Of a DNA stretch of 22,419 nt, positions 1-21,513 are shown in pieces (position 1 is the first letter of the stretch; each line of letters opens with the position of its first letter). The DNA lies in the IMG/VR virus record IMGVR_UViG_3300042482_000009, positions 1 to 22,419 of that record, one strand, 5' to 3'. The stretch comes from a virus. The notes beneath the pieces were generated by a model, which had not been told where the DNA came from, made no database searches, and saw nothing but the letters and a program-made list of their open reading frames with translations. A program made the translations under genes and the position numbers.

Positions 1-617
1 GTGAAGTTGAACAAGGTACACCAGAATGGTTTGCACAGCGTTGTGGCAAGGCTACTGCTTCTCGTATCTCTGACATTGTTGCCAAAACAAAGACAGGCTA
101 CAGCACCAGTAGAGCAAACTATATGGCACAGTTGGTAGTCGAGCGCATGACTAACCAAGTGGCAGAGTCTTACTCAAATGCCGTTATGGAGTGGGGGACA
201 GAAAACGAACCCTTTGCCAGAGCCGCATATGAGGTTAAAACAGGCAATACAGTCGATCAGGTATCTGCTATTGACCATCCACGCATTGCCATGTCTGCCG
301 CCTCTCCTGATGGGCTTATTGGTGATGATGGGTGCTTAGAGATCAAGTGTCCCAACACTTCAACCCATATCGACACTATTCTTGGTGACGAGCCAGCAAA
401 GAAGTATTACGACCAAATGCAGTGGCAAATGGCGTGTACAAACAGAAAGTGGTGTGATTTCGTGAGTTTCGACCCACGGATGCCATCGCACTTACAACTG
501 TTTGTCAAAAGAATCGAGCGCAATGATGACTACATTGAACAACTCGAAAAAGAGGTAGTCCAATTCTTAATGGAAGTGGAAGACAAAGTTAAAAAACTCA
601 ATGAAATCAAGGTGTAA
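1..617 (+). CDS. YqaJ/lambda-exonuclease-type viral recombinase, 5' partial
   Basis: Likely 5'-3' double-strand DNA exonuclease that makes single-stranded tails for phage recombination and repair. The frame is open from base 3 through the window edge, giving 204 visible residues, so the gene starts upstream; an ATG at 123 is internal because residues before it ([17 protein letters not shown]) are the conserved N-terminal part of this family. Visible nuclease motifs: [11 protein letters not shown] at about residues 64-73, the aspartate of SPDGL at 101-105, the metal-binding EIK of LEIKCP at 112-117, and the glutamine-containing YYDQMQWQM at 136-143. The C-terminus is a charged helix. It is followed two bases later by a small protein with an SSB-like tail, a sensible partner. 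The family call is firm; the exact function in the phage is inferred from family knowledge. Confidence 0.9.
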
Positions 618-619
618 AT

Positions 620-862
620 ATGGAACAGCGTGACAACTCAGGTGTACTTTTTAAGAACGACAAGAAAGAAAAAGACAATCACCCAGACTATAAAGGCAAC
701 ATTCGTGTTGATGGACAGGATTTCTGGCTATCAGCATGGATTAAAGAGGGCAAGAACGGCAAGTTCATGGGACTAGCAGTCAGCCCTAAAGACGACCAAC
801 CACAGCCTCAAAGCAAGCCTAAAGCCAAGATTGAGGACATGGATTCAGATATACCGTTTTAA
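620..862 (+). CDS. Small protein with SSB-like acidic C-terminal tip
   Basis: 80 residues. The N-terminal part ([20 protein letters not shown], then a [17 protein letters not shown] stretch at about 36-52) looks like a compact beta-rich, lysine-rich domain of the kind common in phage recombination operons. A proline/glutamine/lysine linker at about 56-69 leads to a tail ending DMDSDIPF, which closely matches the acidic-aromatic tip that bacterial SSB proteins use to recruit partner enzymes. Starts two bases after the exonuclease stop, with an AAGGTG Shine-Dalgarno inside the exonuclease end, so the two are translationally coupled. A single-strand DNA-binding or exonuclease-accessory role is inferred from the tail and the neighbour; I do not recognise the N-terminal domain with certainty. 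Confidence 0.7.
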
Positions 863-6887: not shown

Positions 6888-6890
6888 GAT

Positions 6891-7956: not shown

Positions 7957-8265
7957 TCAATCTCCCTTAATCAAAATTTCATCCACTTTTGACGGGTCTT
8001 TCTCGTCAGTGGCATGAATACAAAACCAAACACAATCTGTTATTGCTTTGACACCATGAGTCAACCCTGCTTTGATCTCAATACACGCTGGTGCTTCAAT
8101 AATGTCAATCTCATTCCCACGCAACACAGCAACCTTACCCTGAGCCAATATCGACAAATGGCTGAAGTCATGCGTATGCTTCAAGATAGCCATGCCAGCA
8201 GGAAAAAATGACTGCTTGGCGTAAAGCCCATCAGAGAAGTGATGCAATATCTCAGGGTTTTTCAT
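7957..8265 (-). CDS. Small cupin-fold protein
   Basis: 102 residues. Start set at ATG 8265 because it overlaps the previous stop (ATGA) and has GGAAAAG upstream; a GTG at 8280 in frame is possible but would overlap more. Cupin motif 1 is visible as GMAILKHTHDFSHLSILAQG (about 24-43) with His30, His32 and His36 as likely metal ligands. Motif 2 is IEIKAGLTHGVKAI (about 62-75) with His70. Ends with an acidic/lysine tail. No signal peptide. Single-domain cupins recur beside receptor-binding genes in phages; they might modify or bind a sugar, or act as a small structural protein, but the substrate cannot be read from the sequence. Confidence 0.83.
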   Translation of the reverse strand: MKNPEILHHFSDGLYAKQSFFPAGMAILKHTHDFSHLSILAQGKVAVLRGNEIDIIEAPACIEIKAGLTHGVKAITDCVWFCIHATDEKDPSKVDEILIKGD

Positions 8266-8942
8266 GCCGTTCTTTTCCACATATAGACAGTAATGTACGG
8301 TTGGTAGTTAGCATTTGTGCCACTTGAGCCTGTTGTGCTAACCGCCACACTGATGCCAGTAGTAGCCGTACCAGTATTTGCGCTAACGGCATTTACCCTT
8401 GCACCACCACCACCAGCGTTACCAATACCGGGTTGGTTGTATTCTGTTTGTGTGTGCAAGTGTCCGGGGTCTGTAACAGTTGCCGTGTGAGTGTGGCTGA
8501 CAGTGATTGCATCTGCACTACCACCAGTTTCTTCAGCAGTGTCAAACAACGCATTACCCGAATCAAAACCAACCATGACACGACCAGCACCAAATGCAGT
8601 CCATGTACCAAAGCCAAGCAAAGTTGCAGGGTTAGTGCTAACACTTGCATTCGTGTAAATAGAACCCACTGGATACAACAAAGCAATTGCCGCTTGAACA
8701 AAAGCAGTGGTAGCAATAGTGGTTGTGTTACTTCCATTAGCCTGAGTAACAGCAACCGTACCAGTTGGCAGTGTTGGCGTGCCAGTAAAGGTAGGACTTG
8801 CCAAATCTGCTTTAGTTGCAATGGCAGTGGCAATGTTGTTGAACTCAGTGTCAATCTCAGTACCCTTGACAATCTTCAAAGGGTTGCCAGAAGACAAATT
8901 GTCTTTGGTAGCAAAATTCGTACTCTTGGTATAGTCAGACAC
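8262..8942 (-). CDS. Short tail fibre / collar-domain receptor-binding protein
   Basis: 226 residues from a GTG start six bases after AAAGGAG. The N-terminal part (FATKDNLSSGNPLKIVKGTE, then a DTEFNNIATAIATKADL helix, to about 47) looks like the virion-attachment segment. A repetitive threonine/proline-rich region (about 48-85) follows, then a tail-collar-like domain: YPVGSIYTNASVSTNPATLL and FGTWTAFGAGRVMVGFD at about 90-127. The histidine pairs HTH at 150-152 and HLH at 161-163 are the kind of metal-binding HxH repeats seen in trimeric fibre tips. It ends YQPYITVYMWKRTA, a standard C-terminus of this family. Likely a trimer at the tail tip that contacts the host surface. Separate from the upstream fibre array, giving the phage at least two adhesin systems. 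Confidence 0.85.
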   Translation of the reverse strand: MSDYTKSTNFATKDNLSSGNPLKIVKGTEIDTEFNNIATAIATKADLASPTFTGTPTLPTGTVAVTQANGSNTTTIATTAFVQAAIALLYPVGSIYTNASVSTNPATLLGFGTWTAFGAGRVMVGFDSGNALFDTAEETGGSADAITVSHTHTATVTDPGHLHTQTEYNQPGIGNAGGGGARVNAVSANTGTATTGISVAVSTTGSSGTNANYQPYITVYMWKRTA

Positions 8943-10513: not shown

Positions 10514-11157
10514 ACCGCTACAAACTCCTGATTCTCAGGGTAGCGAGTGCCTTCCAATGCAATGTAATCAGACAACATTGACTTGTACAACAGATAAGCC
10601 TCAGATGAAGACAAACCACCATCTTCACCACGCTCTACCAATGCCCGAGCATAAGCATTCTGAGCCACCAACACATCAGGCACAGAGATGATTGTTGCAT
10701 CTGATGACAATGTAGCTTGTGGGACTGTCAGGCTAAATGGGATGCTATACACACCATCAGGGCGAGGATACAGCGTTACTTTGGTGTCATAGCTACCATT
10801 GACACCATCAAAGGCGTAATAAGCAGGGATTCCACTGACAGGTGTAGAGAAGTTCTGAAACCTGTTCATAGTGGCAAAGTCGATGTTCTTCATGCGAATG
10901 TTGCTTGTGACATTCAACACATCAAGAACTTGGAACTTCTGACCAGCACCTGTCAAAGCATAAGAGTATGTGCCTGAAGTGGTGCTCAGAGTGATTGTTG
11001 TGCCAAGAACATTCCAAGCAAAAGCATCTTCTACTTGACGCTTGGCATCATTGACAAACTTGCCAATGAGGGAAGAATATGTTGTTTCGGAAACAGTTGA
11101 AACAGTTGCTTCACGCAACCTAACTAAAACATCGTTTACAAGTTCTAAGTATGTCAT
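10510..11157 (-). CDS. Head-tail adaptor (tail tubular protein A / gp4-like)
   Basis: 215 residues. The N-terminal helices (YLELVNDVLVRLREATV, FVNDAKRQVEDAFAWNVL) followed by a beta segment (TTITLSTTSGTYSYAL), an RMKNIDF/MNRFQ region, a YPRPDGVYSI strand and a C-terminal helical bundle (VAQNAYARALVERGEDGG) match the layout of podophage adaptor rings that dock under the portal. ATGA overlaps at both ends tie it to the basic gene upstream and the hub gene downstream. The assignment rests on this recognisable N-terminal pattern plus synteny. Confidence 0.82.
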   Translation of the reverse strand: MTYLELVNDVLVRLREATVSTVSETTYSSLIGKFVNDAKRQVEDAFAWNVLGTTITLSTTSGTYSYALTGAGQKFQVLDVLNVTSNIRMKNIDFATMNRFQNFSTPVSGIPAYYAFDGVNGSYDTKVTLYPRPDGVYSIPFSLTVPQATLSSDATIISVPDVLVAQNAYARALVERGEDGGLSSSEAYLLYKSMLSDYIALEGTRYPENQEFVAV

Positions 11158-11459
11158 CTGCTTGCCTTCGCTTTGTTCCTTGCGGATATAGCTTTAGCTT
11201 TTGCCTTTGCGTCAGCCTTTGAGGATGCACCCCATGCTTTAAGCGAAAGAAGCAGTCTTGTCGGTTCACCATCCTTGTACTCTGCACCAGCCATATTGCC
11301 CATGCGAGCCAAGAAACTTGCTCTGCGAGGGTTATCCCCCGACTTTACTGGTGCTTTGAGTTCTCCACCAGTTTGCGCATTATAGGATGCTCTCCCCTTG
11401 GCATTCAACCCCCCTTTGGGATTTTTGCCCTCGGAGCGTTGCCAAGCTGGAGTTTTCAT
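11154..11459 (-). CDS. Basic conserved phage protein, DUF6321-like
   Basis: 101 residues. The opening PAWQRSEGKNPKGGLNAKGR, then LKAPVKSGDNPRRASFLARM, is the pattern I recall for DUF6321. A middle section (GNMAGAEYKDGEPTRLLLSL) is followed by a lysine/alanine helix (KADAKAKAKAISARNKAKAS) suited to nucleic-acid or capsid contact. Function not established to my knowledge. TAATG junction with the gene before, ATGA with the adaptor after. Its place in the structural block suggests a virion or assembly role, or simply a co-transcribed basic protein. Confidence 0.8.
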   Translation of the reverse strand: MKTPAWQRSEGKNPKGGLNAKGRASYNAQTGGELKAPVKSGDNPRRASFLARMGNMAGAEYKDGEPTRLLLSLKAWGASSKADAKAKAKAISARNKAKASR

Positions 11460-11617
11460 TACTTCACCTTTTTTGGTTTCTTTGCAGTCTTTGCCGCCTG
11501 TTTAAAGGCTTCAGCAGTAGGAGCACCTTTGCTACCTACCTTGCGCATCTTTTCGCCTGAACCAGCCTTGATTCTGGCTTGTTTGGCATGAATGTTGGCG
11601 TAGAGTCCTTGCTTCAT
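11459..11617 (-). CDS. 52-residue lysine-rich phage protein
   Basis: ATG at 11617 overlaps the previous stop (ATGA) and the TAA at 11461-11459 overlaps the next start (TAATG). Product begins MKQGLYANIHAKQARIKAGS and continues GEKMRKVGSKGAPTAEAFKQ, ending in a run of lysines. By count it has 13 lysines and 2 arginines against 2 acidic residues. I recognise GLYANIHAK...RIKAGSGEKMRK.GSKGAPT as a very common small phage protein of unknown function. Its charge would suit binding packaged DNA or scaffold, but this is speculation. Confidence 0.82.
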   Translation of the reverse strand: MKQGLYANIHAKQARIKAGSGEKMRKVGSKGAPTAEAFKQAAKTAKKPKKVK

Positions 11618-11781
11618 TTCATCTTCTTCTTTGGCTTAGACATCCCTGCCTCAGACAAAGCAATGGCAACTGCCTGTTTAGGATTCTTTACAACCTTGCC
11701 ACCCTTGCCTGAGTGCAATTCACCAGCCTTGTACTCACGCATGACTTTGCTGATTTTGGCTTGTGTTTTGGTCTTTTTCAT
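11614..11781 (-). CDS. 55-residue lysine-rich phage protein, DUF6496-like
   Basis: ATGA overlaps at both ends. The core KVMREYKAGELHSGKGGKVV followed by KNPKQAVAIALSEAGM matches my memory of DUF6496 (K-V-M-x-E-x-K-x-G-x-L-x-S-G ... K-Q-A-I-A-I-A-L-S-E-A), a short family common in phage genomes. By count 15 lysines and 1 arginine against 3 glutamates. No function known to me. Its order next to the other lysine-rich gene suggests the pair is kept together. Confidence 0.82.
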   Translation of the reverse strand: MKKTKTQAKISKVMREYKAGELHSGKGGKVVKNPKQAVAIALSEAGMSKPKKKMK

Positions 11782-11963
11782 TTGCCACGACCTGATTTCT
11801 TCATCATGTTAGTAGCAGTTCTGCCACCACGCATAGGCAAACCTTTTGGCTTTCCAATCGCAACCATGATGGTCACAGGAACGCCCTTTTTCTTGCCGTA
11901 CTCTTTGGCTTCTTTCTCGCCTTTTTCAGAGTAGGGAAACTTCTTTTTTCCGACCATTGGCAT
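11778..11963 (-). CDS. 61-residue basic phage protein
   Basis: Start set at ATG 11963, six bases after AAGGAG; the frame is open back to about 11999 but that part overlaps the preceding gene. Sequence MPMVGKKKFPYSEKGEKEAK continues with EYGKKKGVPVTIMVAIGKPK and ends GGRTATNMMKKSGRGK. The KKFPYxxKG opening is shared by many small phage proteins of unknown function. Its Shine-Dalgarno overlaps the stop of the gene before it, and its stop overlaps the next start (ATGA). Confidence 0.75.
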   Translation of the reverse strand: MPMVGKKKFPYSEKGEKEAKEYGKKKGVPVTIMVAIGKPKGLPMRGGRTATNMMKKSGRGK

Positions 11964-11973
11964 ACTGTTCTCC

Positions 11974-12177
11974 TTATTTCCAGATACGATCAGCAACAAA
12001 GGTCACGATACCGCCCATGAAAGAAGCGATAGTCATTCCCATCCAAAATCCACCTTTGCCCTTATTGGCAAGTTCAAGTAAGGCCTTTACATCTGAACTA
12101 AGTGTGTGCATCTCTTTTTGGAGAGCCTCTACTTGGGCTTCAAGTTTTCCAAAGTCTCTGGCATCAATGTCAGACAT
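11974..12177 (-). CDS. 67-residue coiled-coil protein with C-terminal membrane span
   Basis: The N-terminal two thirds form a charged helix with heptad spacing (LEAQVEALQKEMHTLSSDVK), then a glycine-rich turn (NKGKGG) and one span at about 45-63 (WMGMTIASFMGGIVTFVADR). This is a common outline for small phage proteins, some annotated as holin-like. Located among capsid-proximal genes rather than with the lysis set, so I would not call it a holin. Starts eight bases inside the end of the previous gene. Confidence 0.72.
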   Translation of the reverse strand: MSDIDARDFGKLEAQVEALQKEMHTLSSDVKALLELANKGKGGFWMGMTIASFMGGIVTFVADRIWK

Positions 12178-12394
12178 TTAAATCTACCTTTCTGGGTCTT
12201 CCCATACGCTTAATTGTGGGGATGACAGGCGCACGAAAGGCGGTATCTGTTCTAGTCTCTGATTCTACAGATTCTATGGTTACTTCTACATCGTCTACCC
12301 TCACATAACCCTGATGGCCTTTCATGGAATCAATGTCAACTTGATTGTGAAAGGAAACAAGATTGCCTGATTGCAGACACTTAAAAGTAGCCAT
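12170..12394 (-). CDS. Conserved phage hypothetical protein, 74 residues
   Basis: Begins MATFKCLQSGNLVSFHNQVD and contains MKGHQGYVRVDD, a short beta-rich domain, followed by an acidic stretch (VEVTIESVESE) and a basic C-terminus with IKRMGRPRKVDLNV. The GRPRK tail resembles an AT-hook-like minor-groove motif, which may be coincidence. Ribosome site AAGGGG lies between the upstream hairpin and the ATG. Function unknown; within the structural operon. Confidence 0.72.
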   Translation of the reverse strand: MATFKCLQSGNLVSFHNQVDIDSMKGHQGYVRVDDVEVTIESVESETRTDTAFRAPVIPTIKRMGRPRKVDLNV

Positions 12395-12404
12395 AAAACC
12401 CCTT

Positions 12405-12431
12405 AAATGAGAAAGGGGGGACTAGCCCCCC
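12405..12431 (-). terminator. Hairpin / weak intrinsic terminator after the decoration-like gene
   Basis: Six-pair G/C stem (12415-12420 with 12426-12431) and a five-base loop, followed on the - strand by TTTCTCATTT. The uridine tract is broken, so it may be a partial terminator or an mRNA end-protecting hairpin. The next gene starts only a few bases downstream, consistent with read-through. Confidence 0.55.
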
Positions 12432-12436
12432 TATCC

Positions 12437-12760
12437 TTAAACCATGCGAACGATAACGATGCGCAAGGTTGAAGATGCCAAATTCACGGTTGAACCTGAC
12501 TCGTTTTGAATGCGAAACTTGACTGTGTTTGCGGCACTGACATAGCCAGTGACTGTCAAACCAACCAAATCCACACCCAAAGATGCGCCAATTACCATGT
12601 CACCAAGGGCGACACCGGGAACTGTCACATCATCTGTCTCACCGACACCATCATCTAATGAGCCAGCATCAAGGGTTGCTTTTACAGCCCAAGTGTCAGA
12701 GAACAAACCACGAAACTGGTCATTGCCTCTGCGTGTCACAACTGCGGTTGCGCTTGCCAT
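12437..12760 (-). CDS. Capsid decoration-like / structural protein
   Basis: 107 residues of beta-strand character: MASATAVVTRRGNDQFRGLF, a DAGSLDDGVGETDDVTVPGV acidic loop, then VGLTVTGYVSAANTVKFRIQ and a final STLRIVIVRMV strand. Length, all-beta profile and position directly after the major capsid gene fit a head decoration or auxiliary capsid protein. No diagnostic motif names the family. Hairpins lie on both sides, so it may be expressed from its own transcript share. Alternatively a tail or virion surface protein. Confidence 0.68.
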   Translation of the reverse strand: MASATAVVTRRGNDQFRGLFSDTWAVKATLDAGSLDDGVGETDDVTVPGVALGDMVIGASLGVDLVGLTVTGYVSAANTVKFRIQNESGSTVNLASSTLRIVIVRMV

Positions 12761-12783
12761 TTTGATTTCTCCTAATTTAGTTT

Positions 12784-12815
12784 AAAAAAGACCCCCTACC
12801 ACTAGGGCAGGGGGG
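12784..12815 (-). terminator. Strong rho-independent terminator after the capsid gene
   Basis: On the - strand a nine-pair stem, CCCCCTGCC with GGTAGGGGG (one G-T pair), closes a five-base CTAGT loop and runs straight into TCTTTTTT. Lies 12 bases downstream of the major capsid stop. Likely limits read-through so that capsid mRNA is made in excess over the tail genes. Confidence 0.88.
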
Positions 12816-12825
12816 ACAACTGCAA

Positions 12826-13773
12826 TTAGGCTGGAACTGCCAAGGCAAACATGGATGAGGACTTAGCCGCACCCACAGAAGCGGCACTACGCAAGGCGGC
12901 AACGCCATACAAAGTGTCACTTGTGAACAGCGTAGCAAGGTACTCTTGCTTGTACTGTACTTGTGAACGCACACCAACTTGCTCAACCAAGACCATCGCA
13001 TCTTTGTGACCCATCAAGCACACACGAGCCGCACCAGAACCAGAAGTGGTATCAGCGTTGCTAGAGGTGAAGACAGGGATGCCATACAGGTTGCCAATTT
13101 CACCAGTGCGAATAGCGTCACCAGTACCGACAAATGCTTGTTCGGTGTAGCGAGCCAAACCCATCAGGGTGTTGCGGCTTGATGGAGGAATCAAGAAGAA
13201 ACGATTGTCCATAGGAGTATCGTTGTCATCCAAACGCTGAATGGTTCTGCGAATAGCGGCATCAGTCAGTGCTGATTCATTGTTGCTTGCGGCAACATAG
13301 GCAGTCGTACCGTCACCACCAATATAGGCGGCAGCGTATGCGGCTGTACCAGCACCACCGTTGGCTGAACGACCCAACTGCACCAAGTCTGTATCGACTT
13401 GACGAGCCAAGGCATAGCCAGCATCGGAGGTGTAGAACTGACGCATAGAGTTCAGAGCCTGTGCTTCCACGATGTCTTCAATCAAGCGGCTATATTCATA
13501 GTGCTTGTTGATTGACACTTGGACTTCAGACTCAGTGGCGGCAATCAAAGTGACTGCTGTCTCAGCGGCTTTGGCAGAAGCAGAACCACGGGTAGGTGCA
13601 GGAATGTGAACAGTGTCACCTTTCTTGCCCTTGAAGTTCATCTTCATAACCAAGTTGGCTAAAACTAGGTTTTTCTTGTAAGCCGCAACAATTTCATCAC
13701 TCCAAATTTCAGGAATGAATGTTGCGCCAGTGGTGGTAGTAACTGAGTTACTAGGGGAAAATGATGTTGCCAT
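12826..13773 (-). CDS. Major capsid protein
   Basis: 315 residues. Start set at ATG 13773, seven bases after TTGGAG; the upstream TTG adds residues (IFWSTQ) that encode the ribosome site. N-terminus MATSFSPSNSVTTTTGATFI leads to PEIWSDEIVAAYKKNLVLAN, a typical N-arm of HK97-fold capsid proteins. Then KKGDTVHIPAPTRG at about 52-65, the INKHYEYSRLIEDIVEAQAL segment at about 87-106, and a P-domain-like DDNDTPMDNRFFLIPPSSRN. The C-terminal part (RSQVQYKQEYLATLFTSDTL) is characteristic of capsid proteins that end by describing peripheral strands. It follows a scaffold gene and precedes a strong terminator, as expected for the most abundant virion protein. Fold family inferred from pattern. Confidence 0.88.
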   Translation of the reverse strand: MATSFSPSNSVTTTTGATFIPEIWSDEIVAAYKKNLVLANLVMKMNFKGKKGDTVHIPAPTRGSASAKAAETAVTLIAATESEVQVSINKHYEYSRLIEDIVEAQALNSMRQFYTSDAGYALARQVDTDLVQLGRSANGGAGTAAYAAAYIGGDGTTAYVAASNNESALTDAAIRRTIQRLDDNDTPMDNRFFLIPPSSRNTLMGLARYTEQAFVGTGDAIRTGEIGNLYGIPVFTSSNADTTSGSGAARVCLMGHKDAMVLVEQVGVRSQVQYKQEYLATLFTSDTLYGVAALRSAASVGAAKSSSMFALAVPA

Positions 13774-14603: not shown

Positions 14604-14629
14604 CACAACGGCATAATGCTTATGTTGTG
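14604..14629 (-). other. Bulged inverted repeat between zinc-ribbon and scaffold genes
   Basis: Outer arms CACAA/TTGTG and inner arms CATAA/TTATG, separated by a three-base bulge, close a three-base loop. No uridine tract follows, so it is not a typical terminator. It spans the end of the zinc-ribbon gene and the scaffold leader and could be an mRNA processing or stability element. Confidence 0.4.
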
Positions 14630-14847
14630 GCTTTGCGCTCTGCCACCAACTTTTCACGATGTTTCTTGTCAAATTTCATCCATGACGATGGAAAATGACC
14701 AGACCATCCTTCCAAGTTGACGCTTGGTGCGCTGATTGTGCGATTGGCTGAACCACCGCACTCACACTGAGTTTCCTGTGTCTCATAATCACAGTACCTC
14801 TCAATTCTGTGTCCACTTACGCAGACAAATTCATACATTCTTTTCAT
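14620..14847 (-). CDS. Small zinc-ribbon protein (FmdB-like)
   Basis: 75 residues from ATG 14847, five bases after GAGGA; a second ATG at 14838 is possible. MYEFVCVSGHRIERYCDYET with Cys9 and His13, then QCECGG with Cys28 and Cys30, gives a likely four-ligand zinc site in the manner of short FmdB-type ribbons. The C-terminal part (SVNLEGWSGHFPSSWMKFDK, then a basic helix) is seen in phage versions of this family. Role unknown; found beside capsid-assembly genes. Slight overlap with the gene before it. Confidence 0.75.
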   Translation of the reverse strand: MKRMYEFVCVSGHRIERYCDYETQETQCECGGSANRTISAPSVNLEGWSGHFPSSWMKFDKKHREKLVAERKATT

Positions 14848-15070
14848 TCAATTCCTCGTAGGCTCGTTCGCTGACCTCTCTCAAGGTTTTCAGCCAAGTC
14901 AAGATGGAAAGTTCACCTTTTCTGAACATCAAGGTCTTTTCATCAGGAATTACGCTTATATTATTGAGTGACTCTATCATATTGTCAATATCAATAATTA
15001 AATCCTTCCACCCCTGATTTCCCATCATCTCAAATCGGGATTCGTAATACTTTTGTAGGTCAGGACTCAT
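14831..15070 (-). CDS. Conserved podophage hypothetical protein, 79 residues
   Basis: Helical protein starting MSPDLQKYYESRFEMMGNQG followed by WKDLIIDIDNMIESLNNI, then DEKTLMFRKGELSILTWL and KTLREVSERAYEELNE. The combination SPDLQKYYESRF...GWKDL...K.L.FRKGEL.I..WL is one I recall from many podophages, with unknown function, near the scaffold gene. ATGA overlap with the upstream stop. No membrane span or catalytic motif. Confidence 0.78.
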   Translation of the reverse strand: MSPDLQKYYESRFEMMGNQGWKDLIIDIDNMIESLNNISVIPDEKTLMFRKGELSILTWLKTLREVSERAYEELNEKNV

Positions 15071-15288
15071 GGCATTGCCGCTTTGATCTCGTCAACCGTG
15101 GATGCTGAATCAATGGCAGTCTGCATAGCCGCATACTTCTCACGCACAGCTTGCCTTGCCGCTTCTGCCGCTGTTGCCTCTGAGGGAATGGTTGCCTTGA
15201 TGTCCAAGGGCGCAAACTCAGCAGACCTTGCTTCTCTGCGCTTGTCGTGGGCAATACCCTTGGCTTTGTCAATGTTGATGGTAATCAT
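15067..15288 (-). CDS. Small helical protein, possible fibre-assembly partner
   Basis: 73 residues. Start set at ATG 15288, which overlaps the previous stop (ATGA) and lies five bases after GGGAG; another ATG at 15300 lies further inside the previous gene. Sequence ITINIDKAKGIAHDKRREAR, then SAEFAPLDIKATIPSEATAA and an alanine-rich helix ending STVDEIKAAMP. The K.IAHDKRR..R..EF.PLD pattern is common next to fibre genes and resembles the C-terminal part of fibre-assembly proteins. Chaperone role is inferred from position and from the paired gene upstream. Confidence 0.7.
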   Translation of the reverse strand: MITINIDKAKGIAHDKRREARSAEFAPLDIKATIPSEATAAEAARQAVREKYAAMQTAIDSASTVDEIKAAMP

Positions 15289-15470
15289 GCGTACTCCCAT
15301 GCGTTACGGAATGTGCGGTCTGTTGGAATGTCAGCGACATCCACAATCTTGTAAGGCTTGCCAGCAGGGACATCCTTGGCGGCAATTTCCTCAATAGTTA
15401 AACCGCATTCAGGTGCTGGAACAATGATGGCTACACCATCGTCTGTTGGAAAAATTATTCTTTGGTTCAT
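15285..15470 (-). CDS. Small protein, possible fibre-assembly partner
   Basis: 61 residues after an AAGGA site. MNQRIIFPTDDGVAIIVPAP is a beta-hairpin-like start; then CGLTIEEIAAKDVPAGKPYK and IVDVADIPTDRTFRNAWEYA. The ending (I-P-x-D-R-T-F-R-N-A-W) is one I know from small phage genes beside tail-fibre genes, where a similar segment occurs in fibre-assembly or chaperone-like proteins. With the 73-residue gene after it, this looks like a split two-gene version of a single assembly protein. The family memory is fairly strong; the function is inferred. Confidence 0.72.
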   Translation of the reverse strand: MNQRIIFPTDDGVAIIVPAPECGLTIEEIAAKDVPAGKPYKIVDVADIPTDRTFRNAWEYA

Positions 15471-15482
15471 GGTTTATCCTTG

Positions 15483-15977
15483 TTAACGATGAAAAACAGC
15501 ACAAATGCTTACTGAATCATAGGATGATGTTGCGCTTTGACAATTAAATCTGAATGCACTTGTGGTTGGCGCAACAGTTTCGGAAGCAACAACAATAAAG
15601 CCATAACCTCCCTGTCCAGACTCAGACCGTCTTGATAATGTATAGCCATAATTAACATCAGGCATGGCAGTCGTGAAGTTCACCGAGTAATCACCAGTAC
15701 CGTTATCCGTAATACTAGTCACATTTCCACTTGCACGAATAGCCACAGTACCTGTGCCATTGAAGTTCACCCAAGCCCTTGCCATATACAAAGGTGCAGT
15801 GCCTGACACAGTAGCAATCTGTGCTGAATCAATGTTTGGTGTTGTCAGCGTTGGGCTTGTTATTGTCTTGTTTGTCAGCGTTTGTGTGTCAGTTGTGCCA
15901 ACCCCTGCGCCAGCAGTATTAGCCAAGCCACCTGCTGGATATGTAATTCCACTTGTTCCTGATATTGTTACAGGCAT
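15483..15977 (-). CDS. Fibre-like protein, type B C-terminal module
   Basis: 164 residues, after AAGGGG. N-terminus (ISGTSGITYPAGGLANTAGA, then TDTQTLTNKTITSPTLTTPN) is the repetitive threonine-rich stem common in phage fibres. From about residue 68 comes a module shared with the gene at 18604-19014: RAWVNFNGTGTVAIR, NVTSITDNGTGDYSVNFTTA, then M.D.NY. The last 50 residues differ from that paralogue. All-beta composition and the array context support a trimeric fibre or fibre-tip subunit. Probably one of several alternative or stacked adhesin parts. No self-cleaving chaperone domain seen. Confidence 0.8.
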   Translation of the reverse strand: MPVTISGTSGITYPAGGLANTAGAGVGTTDTQTLTNKTITSPTLTTPNIDSAQIATVSGTAPLYMARAWVNFNGTGTVAIRASGNVTSITDNGTGDYSVNFTTAMPDVNYGYTLSRRSESGQGGYGFIVVASETVAPTTSAFRFNCQSATSSYDSVSICAVFHR

Positions 15978-15988
15978 GGTTGTTCCCC

Positions 15989-16807
15989 TTATTCGTAAAG
16001 GATGTTGATTGAACCAGCATCAAAGGTGTCTGTGCCGTTAGCTGTGGTAATACGAACACGATCTAAAGTTGTTGACAGCGTTTTTGTAAATCCTGAGATG
16101 TGCGCGCTTCTATCCGTTGCGCTAAAAGCCACAATACCTGCGCTTATCCATGTATTACTTCCAACTAATGTTAATGTCACGTTCCCAGACATTGTTTGTG
16201 CAGCCAAGCATGAAACTGTTGCTGCCATATAAGTCGTAGGCCACAATCCTGCCCCTGTCTGAGCGCCTGATGTTCCAACACTACCAACATAACCTGTCGC
16301 CGATATAGAACCATCACCTATTTGAACAGCTAAAGGACTCGTGCCATTCGTACTCACCCCATTAAACATCACAGTAATCCGTTTTACCCAACTCGGTATA
16401 TCTGTAAAGTTAATGCTCGTACCCGATGTAGAGTTTTGAGACACTCCACTAACCAATTGCGACCCAGTGCCCGGCACTGTTTGCATTGGATACCAAGTTG
16501 TATTTGACAACCTATATACATACGATGCCGCTGTTTTTGCTGGCAAGAATGTCACCGCATTTGACATTGACTGCCCTGTATTACCTTGAACAGTCAGTGC
16601 GGTAATTTGCTGTGATGAACTAAAAGTAATTGTCATCCCATCCGCAGGGGATGCTGGCATTGTGATTGTGCCTGTTGCTAATGTCCCCGCAGGGTTCATC
16701 ACCAAAACATTTGTTCCAGCCGCAAAGGTATATGAAAACCCTGTTGTTGGGGCTTGGTAGTCGTACTGCTGAAGCAGTCCGTTTGTGCCGTCAAGTTTGG
16801 CTGTCAT
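15989..16807 (-). CDS. Fibre-like protein, type A C-terminal module, long N-terminus
   Basis: 272 residues. MTAKLDGTNGLLQQYDYQAP opens a region (to about 115) ending in AASYVYRLSNTTWYPMQTVP, a beta-rich capping domain common in aquatic-phage fibres. From about residue 129 comes the type A module: SGTSINFTDIPSWVKRITVM, FNGVSTNGTS, a variable centre, then TLDRVRITTANGTDTFDAGS and INILYE at the end. The same two blocks recur in the genes at 16971 and 17998, with the centre diverged. This looks like a fibre head with conserved framework and variable face. The start overlaps the previous gene by 17 bases. Confidence 0.8.
   Translation of the reverse strand: MTAKLDGTNGLLQQYDYQAPTTGFSYTFAAGTNVLVMNPAGTLATGTITMPASPADGMTITFSSSQQITALTVQGNTGQSMSNAVTFLPAKTAASYVYRLSNTTWYPMQTVPGTGSQLVSGVSQNSTSGTSINFTDIPSWVKRITVMFNGVSTNGTSPLAVQIGDGSISATGYVGSVGTSGAQTGAGLWPTTYMAATVSCLAAQTMSGNVTLTLVGSNTWISAGIVAFSATDRSAHISGFTKTLSTTLDRVRITTANGTDTFDAGSINILYE
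15992..16069 (-). repeat. Type A C-terminal block, copy 1
   Basis: Encodes TLDRVRITT-NGTDTFDAGSIN and the end of the gene. Paralogous to 16974-17051 and 18001-18081. Conserved at both protein and DNA level by eye; the centre of each gene is not. Confidence 0.8.
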
Positions 16808-16961
16808 TTGTTATCTCTTGAGGTTGTTCAGCTTGCGTCTCTATCAATGCTTGCTGTTCAGCTTGTGCTACAGCCGCATCATGGGCCGCCTGTTCTTCAG
16901 GTGTGTACTCAACTTGAGTGACTTCACCAGTTTGGACATTTACTACGATTCTGTGTGTCAT
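16791..16961 (-). CDS. 56-residue conserved phage protein between fibre genes
   Basis: From ATG 16961, after AAGGA. MTHRIVVNVQTGEVTQVEYT, then PEEQAAHDAAVAQAEQQALI and a glutamine/glutamate-rich end. The MT.RIVVNVQTGEV...EYTPEEQA pattern is one I recall from small phage genes next to fibre genes, function unknown. The first half is a likely beta-hairpin, the rest a charged helix. It may be a fibre-associated or assembly protein like the pair at 15067-15470. Confidence 0.75.
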   Translation of the reverse strand: MTHRIVVNVQTGEVTQVEYTPEEQAAHDAAVAQAEQQALIETQAEQPQEITNDSQT

Positions 16962-16970
16962 GGTGTTTCC

Positions 16971-17498
16971 TTATTCATATAGGATGTTTATACTGCCTGC
17001 ATCGAAGGTGTCAGTGCCGTTGACTGTGGTTATGCGTACTCGGTCGAGAGTGCCTGTCAAAGTTACGCCACCAGCACACCATTGAGCATTGTTAGCAGTA
17101 CCTCTTCCCAAAGCGCCAGTTTCTGTCCAGACATTACTACCAAAACTAGTAATAGTCATATTTCCGTACCATAAATTAGCGGCAGCATTTGCTGCTGTAA
17201 ATATAAATCCAGCAGTAGACCTTACTGAAGTTACGCTTGCGGCATTATCACCTTGAGCGGCTGTAGCATCGTAAGATGTTGTCTGTACTGAACCAGCTCC
17301 AATTTGTACTAAAAGATTGCTTGTTCCGTTGGTAGAGACCCCATTCAACATCACCGTAATCCGCTTCACCCAACTGGGTATGCCAGTAAAGTCAATGCTT
17401 GTACCTGATGTAGAGGCAACAGCAGTGCCAGAGGTAATCCCCAGCACCGCACCTGAGTTGATTGTTACGCTTGCTGAACCATCAATGACTGTTGCCAA
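16971..17498 (-). CDS. Fibre-like protein, type A module, TTG start
   Basis: 175 residues. The only standard start in frame is TTG at 17498, eight bases after AAGGAG, which itself overlaps the stop of the homing endonuclease gene. The N-terminus is short (MATVIDGSASVTINSGAVLG). The type A module follows: SGTSIDFTGIPSWVKRITVM at about 32-51, LNGVSTNGTS, a variable centre, and a C-terminus TLDRVRITTVNGTDTFDAGS-INILYE. It lacks the long N-terminal domain of the 272-residue paralogue. Either a short fibre-head protein or a paralogue reduced during array rearrangement. Confidence 0.78.
   Translation of the reverse strand: MATVIDGSASVTINSGAVLGITSGTAVASTSGTSIDFTGIPSWVKRITVMLNGVSTNGTSNLLVQIGAGSVQTTSYDATAAQGDNAASVTSVRSTAGFIFTAANAAANLWYGNMTITSFGSNVWTETGALGRGTANNAQWCAGGVTLTGTLDRVRITTVNGTDTFDAGSINILYE
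16974..17051 (-). repeat. Type A C-terminal block, copy 2
   Basis: Paralogous to 15992-16069 and 18001-18081, closest by eye to the 18001 copy (for example both contain the 10-base CGGTCGAGAG on the + strand). Confidence 0.8.
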
Positions 17499-17510
17499 AA
17501 TATATTCTCC

Positions 17511-17996
17511 TTATGCGTGAAACATTGGATGAAATTTACTTTTTGCAAGTAAATACGCATTCGATGCTTCTTTCAAGGTTTCAAATGTACCAAGGTGAAT
17601 TTGTTTTTTATTGCAAACAATCTTGGCTCGAAATCTTTCTCCATACTTATACACGCCACGACATTGCAAAGAACCATGCGATCTTGGCTTAATGTCATTT
17701 TGCATATTTTCTTGTTGTGTAGCTTCTCGTAAATTTCCCCAGCGATTGTCCATTTTGTTTCGATTGCAATGGTCAATATAGTTCTCTGGAAATTCACCAG
17801 TCATGTACAAGTAAGCTAATCTATGCAAAAGATAGCGTTTGCCATCAATGTCAGCTTCAAGATACCCTGCTTTTGTTTTGCTACCAAGAATAGCGCCTAC
17901 TTTTTTCGCACTGCCTTTGCGGTTTTTTGCAACAACAAAATCGCCTGTTGCAGGGTTGTATGTGAAAAGTTCCTTCAATCTAGCTTGCGTAAGCAT
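17511..17996 (-). CDS. Free-standing HNH homing endonuclease with AP2 domain
   Basis: 161 residues from ATG 17996, five bases after GGAAGG; the open frame further upstream is a shadow of the preceding fibre gene. The N-terminus (LTQARLKELFTYNPATGDFV) is the usual opening of phage HNH-AP2 enzymes. The HNH core shows LLHRLAYLYMTGEFPENYID at about 56-75, HCNRNKMDNRWGNLREAT at 76-93 (His76, Asn80, Asn88 as candidate catalytic residues). A C-terminal AP2-type DNA-binding domain spans about 112-155 (RGVYKYGERFRAKIV, then IHLGTFETLKEASNAYLLAK). It would cut unoccupied alleles and spread by repair. It sits neatly between two fibre genes without breaking either frame. Confidence 0.9.
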   Translation of the reverse strand: MLTQARLKELFTYNPATGDFVVAKNRKGSAKKVGAILGSKTKAGYLEADIDGKRYLLHRLAYLYMTGEFPENYIDHCNRNKMDNRWGNLREATQQENMQNDIKPRSHGSLQCRGVYKYGERFRAKIVCNKKQIHLGTFETLKEASNAYLLAKSKFHPMFHA

Positions 17997-17997
17997 A

Positions 17998-18594
17998 TTA
18001 ACCTTCCCATAACAGATTGATTGAACCAGCATCGAATGTGTCAGTTCCATTGACGGTGGTGATGCGGACACGGTCGAGAGTTCCTGAAAGTGTTTTACTA
18101 CCCGCAGCAAAGAACATTGTGTTTGCTCCCGCCTCTCTGCTAAAAGACCCTGACCCAACCCATGCGTTGCTGCCCAACAAAGAAAATACAATGCTTCCAT
18201 TAATGGTAGCAGCCGCACCATGATTGGCGGAAGTTGTAATAAAAAAACCTGTTGTTCCGCTTTGACTTGAAGCTGATGAACTTTGAATAGAAGTGCAAGA
18301 TGTAATGTAGGAGGCGGTATCAACAGAGCCTGCTCCAAGCTGTATTTGGTACGGACTTGTGCTGGTTGTACTCACCCCATTAAACATCACTGTGATTTTC
18401 TTCACCCAACTGGGGATGCCTGTGAAATCAATAGATGTCCCACTGGTAGAGTTAACAGCAGTACCTTGCGTAATCCTTTGCAACTGCGCCCGAGACGCAT
18501 TGCTGTCAGTCCCAAAGAACTGTCCGTTGTATTCAAGGTTGCCAGCGGCTGGTGTACCAATCAGCGTGTCAGAAGTTAAAACAAGTATTGACAT
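17998..18594 (-). CDS. Fibre-like protein, type A module, third paralogue
   Basis: 198 residues. The N-terminus (ILVLTSDTLIGTPAAGNLEY, then NGQFFGTDSNASRAQLQRI) is a recurrent fibre-stem cap in aquatic phages and differs from those of the other type A genes. The module follows: TSGTSIDFTGIPSWVKKITV at about 50-69, MFNGVSTTSTS, a variable centre, and TLDRVRITTVNGTDTFDAGS-INLLWEG at the end. Ribosome site is weak (AAAGAAC). Directly followed by the homing endonuclease, whose Shine-Dalgarno lies in the last codons of this gene. Confidence 0.8.
   Translation of the reverse strand: MSILVLTSDTLIGTPAAGNLEYNGQFFGTDSNASRAQLQRITQGTAVNSTSGTSIDFTGIPSWVKKITVMFNGVSTTSTSPYQIQLGAGSVDTASYITSCTSIQSSSASSQSGTTGFFITTSANHGAAATINGSIVFSLLGSNAWVGSGSFSREAGANTMFFAAGSKTLSGTLDRVRITTVNGTDTFDAGSINLLWEG
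18001..18081 (-). repeat. Type A C-terminal block, copy 3
   Basis: Third copy of the conserved fibre C-terminus; ends LLWEG rather than ILYE. Confidence 0.8.
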
Positions 18595-18603
18595 GGTGTT
18601 CTT

Positions 18604-19014
18604 TCAACGGAAGATGGAAGCATTGACAAAAGTTGTGTCTGTTGCGGTTGTTGTATTGCCGACGATTGTTTGGATATTACAATTTCCAGCAGCCATAGAA
18701 GCAATCCGTGTAACCCAACCTCCACTACCAGAAGTAGCAACAAACGAATAATTCGCATCCAGCATCGCAGTTGTGAAGTTCACCGTATAGTCACCCGTAC
18801 CGTTATCCGTAATGCTCGTCACATTAAATGAACCCCGAATAGCGACTGTACTTGTACCATTAAAATTCACCCACGCACGACACACACCCACAGTCGCATC
18901 ATTCAGCACAGTGCCTGTGGTAGCTGGCAAAGTTAGCGTGGTAGTCCCAGCAACAGCAGGGGCGGCAATAGTTACCTGTCCTGATGTGTCTCCTGTTAAA
19001 ACAAGGGAAGCCAT
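18604..19014 (-). CDS. Fibre-like protein, type B module, short
   Basis: 136 residues after AAGGA. N-terminus SLVLTGDTSGQVTIAAPAVA then GTTTLTLPATTGTVLND is a well-known phage fibre segment. From about 46 comes the type B module: RAWVNFNGTSTVAIR, NVTSITDNGTGDYTVNFTTA, MLDANY, shared with the gene at 15483. The last 40 residues are unique (GNTTTATDTTFVNASIFR). Its N-terminal pattern is also echoed in the next gene (19024), which carries a different C-terminal end, so modules seem to be shuffled. Confidence 0.8.
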   Translation of the reverse strand: MASLVLTGDTSGQVTIAAPAVAGTTTLTLPATTGTVLNDATVGVCRAWVNFNGTSTVAIRGSFNVTSITDNGTGDYTVNFTTAMLDANYSFVATSGSGGWVTRIASMAAGNCNIQTIVGNTTTATDTTFVNASIFR

Positions 19015-19023
19015 TTCAATCCT

Positions 19024-19317
19024 TTACAAAATTACCCATCTAGAACCAGATGGAAGTGTGACAGATACTCCAGCATTCAAAGTAATTGCACCTACAGAAT
19101 GAGCGCAAGAACCAGAAGTCACTGAATATGAAGTAGTCACTGTTTTTGTATTTTCATAGATTGGCGCACCAGTTATCAATGCTGTTGATGATGTGACAAC
19201 AGGGATTGTTCCTGATAAAGCTGATAGCGTTTGCGTGTAATTGCTACTTGTGTTGGGTGATGTAACAGTGACTGTTCCAGACCCTGCCGCATTTCCTGAT
19301 ATGGCTACTTGAGACAT
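19024..19317 (-). CDS. Short fibre-like protein, type C end
   Basis: 97 residues after AAAGGA. N-terminus QVAISGNAAGSGTVTVTSPN then a NYTQTLSALSGTIPVVTS segment parallels the stem of the type B gene before it in map order. The C-terminus (YSVTSGSCAHSVGAITLNAG, VSVTLPSGSRWVIL) resembles the last 45 residues of the 728-residue fibre (YTIAAGQNGMSSGAVSVATG, VTVTVSTGSAWTVV). Likely a small trimeric fibre-tip element. Confidence 0.77.
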   Translation of the reverse strand: MSQVAISGNAAGSGTVTVTSPNTSSNYTQTLSALSGTIPVVTSSTALITGAPIYENTKTVTTSYSVTSGSCAHSVGAITLNAGVSVTLPSGSRWVIL

Positions 19318-19326
19318 TGTTTTCCT

Positions 19327-21513
19327 TTACACCACAGTCCAAGCTGAACCAGTTGAAACTGTAACAGTTACACCAGTTGCAACAGAAACCGCACCAGAAC
19401 TCATACCATTCTGACCAGCCGCAATAGTGTAGTCTGCTGAAATTGTTTGGCTATTCACAAATATCCCATTTGATGCAATAACAACAGTTGATTGCAACTC
19501 GCCAGTGCTAGGCTTGTAAAGCAACTTGGTGTTACCAGTGTAAATCGTAGTTGGCGTACCTGATGTTGCATTTGCAAACAATGGGTAGACATTGGTTGAT
19601 GTACTTGTGTCGTTACTGATACTTGCGCCAGCAGTACCATTAGATGCTGATGTAATGCGACCATAAGCGTCAACAGTGATGTTTGCCGCTGTGTAACTTG
19701 CCGCTGTCACCCCACTGGTTGCTAACGCAACAGTGCCACTTGTCGTAATCGTTCCACCTGTCAAACCAGTACCAGCAGTGATAGATGTCACAGTGCCTGA
19801 ATACTGGTCATTCGATGTGATAGTGAAGTTAGGGTAAGTACCAGTAACAGAGGTAGTCCCTGCTCCTGTCAATGCAACCGTCTGATCTGGTGCTGAGTTG
19901 GTGATTGTGAAGTTAGGGTAAGTACCACTCGTACTAATACCAGTACCAGCAGTCAATACAACTGTCTGGTCAGGGGCAGAATTGGTAATAGTCACAGCAC
20001 CAGTAGCACCTGAGACTGAAATGCCTGTACCAGCCACTGCTGAAGTCACGCCTGAGTTGGCAATCGTGATAGAACCAGCACCTTCAGTAATGGTTATACC
20101 TGTACCATCAGTTAGCGTGTTCTTTTCCCACAAGTCAGTTGTTTCGTTGTAGATCAACACTTGACCATTGGTGGCATTCTGAGCAGACACATTGTGCAAC
20201 TCATCCATCTCATAGCCGTTTTGAATTCTGACCTCAATTGAGCCTTGATTCACATGGCTACGAGTTACAACGCCTATATAAACCAAGTGATTAGGTGCGT
20301 ATTGCTTGGTAGATGTGTATGCGCCAGCAGTTGTTGAACTCAAATACAACTGTGTGCCATTTGCAAATGCAGATGTATCTAATCCAGATAAATCACCAGC
20401 CAAAATTGCATAACCATTGTTATTATTTGAGATGTCAGCGAATACAACACCAAATGTTTGGGCAGAAGTTGAATCTGTTGTTGCCAATGCCTTAGATACA
20501 GTGGCTTTATTGCCTGATGCACCACTGATGTAGACAACAGTTCCTTTTGTAAGGGTTGCACCTGTTTCATTGCGTACCTGAGCAATCAATCTTGGAGAGG
20601 AGTAAACGGCAAGATCAGCAGTTGAGCCTGTTGTTGTGACTGTGACACTGGTATCAGCAGATGTGACAAATTGCAAAGTCTCTGATTGGTCAATCTTCTG
20701 CCAAACAGTTCCATTGAATAGCAACCAATCTCCTATCGCCCAATCAGTGATGCCGTTTAGATTGGTAGAGCCAGCAGTTGCAACAATGTAGTAGTAACCA
20801 TTGATTCCTGTACTGCTTGCCAATGTAGGCGTATTGGTAGAAGCATTCCATGTGCCTTGGTAACTCAAACCACCAGCAACAGAAGCCCAAGATGTGCTTG
20901 TTCCATTGGTAGTTAAGAACTTTCCTGAGTTTCCTGTTTGGCTAGGAATCAGGTTATTGATTTGGGTCTGTAGGGAGGCTAGAGTATCAAGAACAGACTG
21001 AGAAGTACCGCCACCATTAGTAATGACTTTGATGCGTTCTGCAAGGTCAGGAGCAACAACCTCACCAACATTGAGTTCAACACCACTAGACAGGACAATG
21101 ACAAGGCTACCATCAAAATCAATCCGAGCAGAGGTAACAGAAACACCATCAACACCATCCACTCCATCACGCCCATCTCTACCAGCGTCACCCTTATCAC
21201 CCTTTGCGCCATCTCGACCTGCTTTTCCATCTTTGCCATCCCTTCCATCTTTGCCGTCTTTACCATCACGACCATCTTTGATAGAAGCAACACGCTTTTC
21301 AATGGCATTGCCTACATCGTCATAGCGAGAACGAATGTCAGCTTCAATCTTCTTCAGGGCTTGAACAACTAGGTCAACATTCTCACCAATCTTGCGCTTT
21401 TGCACTTCTTTGGCTTGAGCAACTGATTGACGCACTGAATCCAAAACAGCCATCTGCTGTTCAGGAGTCATATTCTTAAGGATTAGCTCCTTGGCAAGGT
21501 TTTCTACATCCAT
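19327..21513 (-). CDS. Large fibre protein with collagen-like stalk
   Basis: 728 residues; its ATG overlaps the portal stop (TAATG). Residues 1-79 are helical and charged (ELILKNMTPEQQMAVLDSVR and on), a plausible virion-attachment part. Residues 81-125 are 15 uninterrupted G-x-y triplets rich in GRD, GKD and GVD, a collagen-like triple-helical stalk. Then beta-rich fibre domains: YQGTWNASTNTPTLA, NGYYYIVATAGSTNLNGITD, a GDWLLFNGTVWQKID unit, and LIAQVRNETGATLTKGTVVY. Two tandem 28-residue repeats lie at about 509-566 (SAPDQTV...GTYPNFTIT). The C-terminal 45 residues match the type C end of the 97-residue gene. Likely the main shaft of a trimeric side or tail fibre. No chaperone or lyase domain seen. 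Confidence 0.83.
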   Translation of the reverse strand: MDVENLAKELILKNMTPEQQMAVLDSVRQSVAQAKEVQKRKIGENVDLVVQALKKIEADIRSRYDDVGNAIEKRVASIKDGRDGKDGKDGRDGKDGKAGRDGAKGDKGDAGRDGRDGVDGVDGVSVTSARIDFDGSLVIVLSSGVELNVGEVVAPDLAERIKVITNGGGTSQSVLDTLASLQTQINNLIPSQTGNSGKFLTTNGTSTSWASVAGGLSYQGTWNASTNTPTLASSTGINGYYYIVATAGSTNLNGITDWAIGDWLLFNGTVWQKIDQSETLQFVTSADTSVTVTTTGSTADLAVYSSPRLIAQVRNETGATLTKGTVVYISGASGNKATVSKALATTDSTSAQTFGVVFADISNNNNGYAILAGDLSGLDTSAFANGTQLYLSSTTAGAYTSTKQYAPNHLVYIGVVTRSHVNQGSIEVRIQNGYEMDELHNVSAQNATNGQVLIYNETTDLWEKNTLTDGTGITITEGAGSITIANSGVTSAVAGTGISVSGATGAVTITNSAPDQTVVLTAGTGISTSGTYPNFTITNSAPDQTVALTGAGTTSVTGTYPNFTITSNDQYSGTVTSITAGTGLTGGTITTSGTVALATSGVTAASYTAANITVDAYGRITSASNGTAGASISNDTSTSTNVYPLFANATSGTPTTIYTGNTKLLYKPSTGELQSTVVIASNGIFVNSQTISADYTIAAGQNGMSSGAVSVATGVTVTVSTGSAWTVV
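19818..19990 (-). repeat. Two tandem 28-codon repeats in the large fibre
   Basis: A 21-base identical stretch recurs with an 84-base period (19823-19843 and 19907-19927, + strand). Protein units both contain SAPDQTV, LT and GTYPNFTIT. Confidence 0.75.
21139..21273 (-). repeat. Collagen-like G-x-y coding repeat
   Basis: Fifteen consecutive G-x-y codon triplets in the large fibre gene, mostly GRD, GKD, GKA, GDK and GVD. The DNA shows the matching nine-base near-repeats (CATCxxxxxx pattern on the + strand) and is prone to slippage. Confidence 0.85.

Follow-up and report, generated by a model that had tools for sequence, protein, structure and literature searches.

The tailspike proteins TSP1-TSP4 of Ackermannviridae form a branched complex in which conserved N-terminal assembly parts have fixed roles and C-terminal receptor domains are exchanged by recombination (PMC11414711). 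In gp37/gp38 of T-even phages, according to Tetart 1998 (cited in PMC11414711), crossovers take place at conserved motifs on either side of the hypervariable receptor-binding segments. Domain mosaicism of receptor-binding proteins, with near-identical N-termini and unrelated C-terminal heads, has been described (PMC10684548), and a fibre and its cognate chaperone move together between unrelated phages (Alteromonas A5/V22, PMC10579305; Pam3 gp24/gp25, PMC9608196). Here we describe a fibre-gene interval in the virus record IMGVR_UViG_3300042482_000009, a linear fragment whose 22,419 nucleotides (22.4 kb) form the window of this analysis. The order on the minus strand is portal C-terminus, fibre interval, small open reading frames (ORFs), scaffold, major capsid protein (phrog_267), tail proteins and endolysin. 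The interval contains seven fibre genes (F1-F7), one HNH endonuclease and three small helper ORFs (Table 1). We propose that it probably encodes an ordered array of short fibres, all of which are made, which display several heads, and whose heads are exchanged between phages at conserved edges.

Three C-terminal modules are shared among the fibre genes

An original prediction, made from the letters of the window, described six fibre-like genes with three kinds of C-terminal module. The ORFs it named are present on the minus strand at the coordinates in Table 1, and the three modules were recovered, but the genes it listed number seven. Sharing was assessed by BLASTP and composition-preserving shuffles (Z scores). 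F4, F5 and F6 have a C-terminal domain of ~156 amino acids (aa) in common, the A head, with matches of 58% over 158 aa between F4 and F5 (E 6e-50, Z 41), 48% between F4 and F6 (E 1e-43), and 53% between F5 and F6 (E 7e-41). The paired blocks of these PSWVK-ITVM genes are shared as predicted (E<=7e-41) and are the two edges of one A domain with a diverged centre. Average identity among 106 A proteins is 68% in the first edge, 30% in the centre and 78% at the end. F3 and F7 share the B head of ~95 aa (60% over 83 aa, E 6e-26, Z 21), and their AWVNFNGT block pair likewise forms the edges of a single domain. F1 and F2 share the C tip (33% over the last 54 aa, E 4e-7, Z 6.5), whose motif, given before as VTVxxGSxW, is corrected to VT[VL]xxGSxW. 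A DNA repeat search returned D1 at 16338/17320/18356, D3 at 16014/16996/18026 and D4 at 15648/18748. The stems of F2 and F3 are related, as had been noticed (Z 4.6), and are grouped in one stem cluster. In the all-against-all alignment the similarity is far above that of shuffles, which rules out low-complexity sequence as the source of the shared blocks. A and B are C-terminal in nearly all members.

AlphaFold2 predicts a confident beta-sandwich for the A head, with a predicted local distance difference test score (pLDDT) of 87. Its BFVD matches are uncharacterised phage proteins, and A corresponds to the C-terminus of phrog_29482, a family without a named function. The predicted B head (pLDDT 83.5) resembles the receptor-binding domain of the cyanophage Pam1 tailspike, 7eea (prob 1.00; E 3e-3, weak by E-value), with 26% identity over 72 columns, and also the R1 pyocin fibre (prob 0.94) and H-type lectins. 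Both B-headed proteins match phrog_11355, tail fiber (F7 4.5e-19, F3 2.3e-17). Searches of Pfam and NCBIfam did not name the A, B and C modules or the helpers of the window. A scan of genomes for A heads found eight loci, mostly contigs of metagenome-assembled genomes, and no host was obtained. In L251 (Pseudomonas phage AH02; L numbers denote comparison loci), a protein at 6068-7474 with an A head is annotated as 'major tropism determinant protein', and an unrelated 49-aa ORF follows it.

The heads may bind surface glycans; for receptor binding, the evidence is the predicted structural resemblance of B. Because the genes sit between portal and scaffold, their products might instead decorate the capsid or neck. 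We regard this as very unlikely, as B matches phrog_11355 and the Pam1 and R-pyocin fibre heads, A and B heads also tip single fibres behind tail genes and turn up in isolates, and the helpers resemble tail-fibre assembly proteins.

Stem order is constant while heads change

We compared 461 loci, nearly all from IMG/VR; head counts rest on profiles built in this analysis. In about 40 distinct contigs having both portal and capsid, the interval is 1.5 to 7.8 kb long, and the flanking proteins are mostly 73-100% identical (64-67% in the most distant). The F1 N-terminus comes first in every interval with a fibre gene; the exception, L219, is the shortest interval and has no fibre gene. The last members are s14831, a zinc-ribbon ORF and the scaffold. 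In L005, identity to the window reaches 97% across the region that begins with s14831 and ends with the capsid, and 94% in the available part of F1, but there is no DNA match to F2, F3, F7 or the F6 stem. The gene set is thus not fixed among relatives.

Stem types 2-7, defined by F2-F7 of the window, were found in reversed order in 0 of 129 ordered pairs, a count that is descriptive only, since the contigs are related and the stem patterns were drawn up with the data already in view. The head class changes on these stems: slot 2 carries C, A or B (4, 8 and 4 cases), slot 3 A or B (61 and 8), slot 4 A (23), slot 5 A or B (45 and 4), slot 6 A or B (4 and 6), and slot 7 B or A (7 and 1), the rest being unclassified. 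The array of the window reads 2C 3B 4A 5A 6A 7B, and that of L174 reads 2C 3A 4A 5A 6B 7B. Stem clusters are similarly mixed (cluster 0, A47/B8/C4; cluster 1, A25/B20/C2), and stem identity and head-centre identity show a correlation of -0.01. Each slot combines a conserved, slot-specific N-terminus with an exchangeable C-terminal head. The combinatorial adhesin cassette of the original prediction is therefore modular, with stems and heads decoupled, but it does not mix freely: stem order stays constant and only heads change. As the similarity withstands shuffling and the relatives vary, neither of the outcomes that would have spoken against that prediction (low-complexity similarity, a never-rearranged gene set) was observed. 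The prediction did not include the helpers, the HNH gene, the rule on C tips or a putative second docking site at 8262-8942.

The fixed order, together with frequent 3A-4A-5A triples, would also suit heterotrimeric heads formed by neighbouring A-headed proteins of slots 3-4-5 in place of homotrimers. Such heads are very unlikely, given that slots mix A and B (3B-4A-5A, 3B-4A-5B) and that the head centres of one array differ from each other as much as randomly chosen ones do.

Helper type follows the head class

The small ORFs downstream of the heads follow head class rather than stem or slot. In cases not at a contig end, an A head lies directly upstream of s16806 in 69 of 76, and a B head directly upstream of s15285 in 140 of 145. 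In L057 and L170, whose slot 5 carries a B head, the pair of B helpers sits as an insertion upstream of the A helper. The two halves of the B helper, s15285 and s15067, are fused in some relatives. A position directly downstream of the cognate fibre head is that of a tail-fibre assembly chaperone, and the L151 relative of s16806 contains a Phage_tail_APC domain (PF16778, 2.6e-22); phrog_20196 is matched by s15067 and weakly by L151. The helpers resemble tail-fibre assembly chaperones. Pam3 gp25 consists of an N-terminal beta domain and a C-terminal helical domain (PMC9608196), and s15285 plus s15067 may match this layout in two ORFs.

A fibre-like gene of ~334-372 aa followed by a 49-56-aa ORF (u367+u54 and similar) recurs in the intervals of L086, L118, L130, L184 and L033. 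Pairs of this type are probably a further head type with its own helper.

Footprints of head exchange between genomes

L170, with a slot 4 stem, and L175, with a slot 5 stem, have 327 nucleotides (nt) in common at 99.7% although their stems are 11% alike. The shared stretch is bounded by the ITVM and LDRVR blocks, where identity goes down to about 70%. Head centres of 93-99% DNA identity were found on unrelated stems. In independent pairs with near-identical stems and unlike centres, the breakpoint is no more than 120 nt into the head in 27 of 32 A cases and no more than 150 nt into it in 13 of 15 B cases. Between the window and its closest contig, L093, the stems of F3, F4 and F5 have 83-100% DNA identity, the head centres drop to 13-57% per 30 nt (mostly 27-57%, one 80% stretch apart), and the A-head ends in F4 and F5 are back up at 62-90%. 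Exchanged heads begin and end at conserved edges, in agreement with the predicted role of conserved DNA borders as recombination sites.

Within one array, head-centre identity is never above 40%, and the longest exact matches between paralogues inside the window array are 9-23 nt. Because heads of one array are never alike, exchange runs between genomes, and tandem duplication or within-array shuffling was rejected. Several homologous heads in tandem with conserved edges might also represent a reservoir, as the original prediction allowed, in which the phage would use a single head at any one time and keep the remaining copies as spares that recombine into the active fibre. This is highly improbable: all copies are complete ORFs, each has a stem of its own and usually follows a purine-rich stretch like that of a ribosome-binding site, arrays carry head-specific helpers, heads of an array offer at most the identity given above, and the footprints lie between genomes. 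A diversity-generating retroelement was rejected, as no reverse transcriptase (PF00078) match occurs in the 22.4-kb record, itself a fragment. An invertible cassette (shufflon) was rejected as well, with no PF00239 or PF00589 in the same fragment; all fibre copies are on one strand, and strong inverted repeats were not found.

Phage recombinases tolerate diverged substrates (PMC3945230). The exonuclease and single-strand DNA-binding protein (SSB) encoded at the start of the window may perform the exchange; no strand-annealing protein was identified in the 22.4-kb fragment.

Similar arrays in two cultured phages

Nostoc phage Nsp-JY18 (L477, PP438410) and Microcystis phage Mel-JY33 (L478, PP438424), with hosts as recorded, each have a C-tipped anchor, three B-headed short fibres and then two helpers. 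The short fibres are annotated as hypothetical or 'putative alpha amylase'. The two genomes are 97.6% identical over 15742-42887 (27 kb), and from position 43920 onwards identity is 95.8%. Similarity breaks off at 42887, roughly nine codons inside the first B head and within AWVNFNGT, and returns at the helper start. The first slot stem is 90-97% identical, whereas the heads are mostly 23-73% per 30 nt, with second halves at 17-47%. The isolates also differ in a few early-region genes. Their GC content of 67% looks high for cyanobacterial hosts, so heterotrophs in the cultures may be infected instead and could possibly be the true hosts.

Arrays lie behind C-tipped anchors

Among contigs retrieved through their portal or capsid, A/B short fibres come after F1 in 9 of the 14 cases with a C tip, against 0 of the 48 other cases (Fisher p 1e-7). 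The same rule appears at the second fibre gene (window 8262-8942): A/B genes lie directly behind 6 of 6 C-tipped versions and 0 of 34 others. In L044 (array 9507-11950) and L057 (array 11171-13519), which are of the same phage group, the array comes after the second fibre gene instead, and F1 is a short protein of 288 aa. Slot-3 arrays are preceded by about ten different anchor N-termini.

It is conceivable that short fibres are independent homotrimers attached separately, with order and C tip as merely inherited linkage and no docking hierarchy. The stems of different slots are very unlike, any slot may be missing, and no known linking domain was found in F1-F7 in Pfam or PHROGs. Simple inheritance explains the C-tip link less well, because the association recurs at two genomic sites, behind about ten anchor types and in cultured phages, and we consider separate attachment unlikely. 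A broader idea is that the C tip is a general socket: any anchor ending in C, in unrelated phages and positions, would take a portable, ordered short-fibre set, stems would assemble hierarchically into one multi-headed fibre, and the array would be a transferable host-recognition cartridge with matched chaperones. This idea is possible, if still doubtful.

Proposed working of the array

The interval would be the receptor-binding module of a podovirus-type phage. F1 would anchor to the virion and end in the small C tip. The short fibres would come next in a fixed order, each made of a stem specific to its slot and a beta-sandwich receptor-binding head from one of at least two classes (A or B), and head-specific helper proteins would assist folding. 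All members would be made and present on the virion, and the particle would show several head specificities at once. New heads would come from other phages by homologous recombination. The crossovers would lie in the conserved edges of the heads, or else in the sequence of helper or stem, so that stem order is kept while head and helper change.

Several points weigh against this proposal. For five of the 14 C-tipped F1 genes, the available sequence contains no A/B array, and docking of the short fibres on or through a C-tipped anchor is suggested by genomic association only. For the A head, neither a fold search against solved structures (nothing at E<=1e-3) nor a sequence search returned a match. 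The s16806 of the window has no Phage_tail_APC domain and is too short to carry a chaperone domain. The comparison sequences are mostly metagenomic contigs, single cases of which may be chimeric; L170 and L175 have neighbouring sample numbers. As contigs are related, the counts are not independent events.

Other features of the locus

The HNH gene between F4 and F5 matches PF13392 (1.4e-14) and phrog_99 (7e-55). This junction is empty, with the genes adjacent, in L093, L169, L173, L174 and L166; an HNH domain together with an empty site in relatives is the pattern of a homing endonuclease. In L178 the F4/F5 junction is occupied by an HNH gene whose product is 29% identical, and other array junctions also hold HNH genes. 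In the window, F5 begins with TTG behind AAGGAGAATATAT (HNH insertion region 17487-17996); the F5 of L178 also begins with TTG. The HNH gene has a possible, putative role in driving cassette exchange.

Directly 3' of the second fibre gene is a Cupin-like 107-aa ORF (7957-8280), and an ORF of about 100 aa follows this gene in most relatives. A small CxC zinc-ribbon-like protein (14620-14847) lies directly before the scaffold gene and is kept in all relatives having the interval. The starts of small ORFs are predicted. The kind of relatives suggests that the phage apparently came from fresh water.

Table 1. Features of the fibre interval and related genes in the window
Feature	Coordinates	Strand	Evidence or remark
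F1, anchor fibre	19327..21513	-	Conserved N-terminus directly after portal gene; collagen-like stretch (Collagen PF01391); C tip
C tip of F1, last ~45 aa	19330..19464	-	Pairwise comparison; C-tip rule
F2, slot-2 stem + C tip	19024..19317	-	99% identical in L398/L399
F3, slot-3 stem + B head	18604..19014	-	phrog_11355 match; A head on same stem type in L174 and many others
B head of F3	18607..18885	-	Homology; structure prediction
F4, slot-4 stem + A head	17998..18594	-	Homology; stem typing
A head of F4	18004..18474	-	Predicted beta-sandwich, pLDDT mostly above 90
Free-standing HNH homing-type endonuclease, slots 4/5 junction	17511..17996	-	PF13392; phrog_99
F5, slot-5 stem + A head	16971..17498	-	TTG start
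s16806, A-head helper ORF, 56 aa	16791..16961	-	Relative of tail-fibre assembly proteins
F6, slot-6 stem + A head	15989..16807	-	B head on same stem type in L174, L197, L025, L226
F7, slot-7 stem + B head	15483..15977	-	phrog_11355 match; stem typing
s15285, B-head helper, first half	15285..15470	-	Head-helper linkage
s15067, B-head helper, second half	15067..15288	-	phrog_20196; fused to s15285 in some relatives
Second fibre gene (tip D)	8262..8942	-	Putative second docking site; in L044, L057, L171, L286 the anchor here has a C tip and bears the array instead
RecE/YqaJ-like exonuclease + SSB	3..862	+	Candidate recombination functions

Significance and comparison with known systems

If the proposal is true, the receptor-binding parts of many environmental phages could be written out as a list of C-tipped anchor, ordered stems, head classes and helpers, and parts conserved for assembly could be separated from parts exchanged for recognition. 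It would also explain the unannotated small genes in Nsp-JY18 and Mel-JY33. These nearly identical phages, whose structural-region differences lie mainly in the heads, are a natural experiment, and their similar layout makes the array testable now.

In its working, the array may come closest to the tailspike complex of Ackermannviridae and the exchange of T-even adhesins. As in Ackermannviridae, there are several receptor-binding proteins with conserved N-termini and exchanged variable C-termini, and Limestonevirus TSP4 keeps structural domains only, like the C-tipped anchor (PMC11414711). Unlike in Ackermannviridae, the short fibres are far smaller (97-272 aa), the array lies between portal and scaffold, the heads have helper genes of their own, and F1-F7 have no match to Gp10-like XD/TD linking domains in Pfam or PHROGs. 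As in T-even gp37/gp38, conserved motifs flank the exchanged segments; here, however, no glycine-rich gp38-type adhesin was seen, and several slots per genome each exchange heads of two families. In contrast to the Alteromonas A5/V22 and Pam3 modules, the helper type follows the head class and not the stem or slot. The Pam1 tailspike domain (7eea) and the R-type pyocin fibre head have the same predicted fold as B, which is carried here on very short stems. Ordered multi-gene arrays and the C-tip rule go beyond the mosaicism described before (PMC10684548). Modular receptor-binding proteins were already known, whereas the slot, helper and C-tip rules look new.

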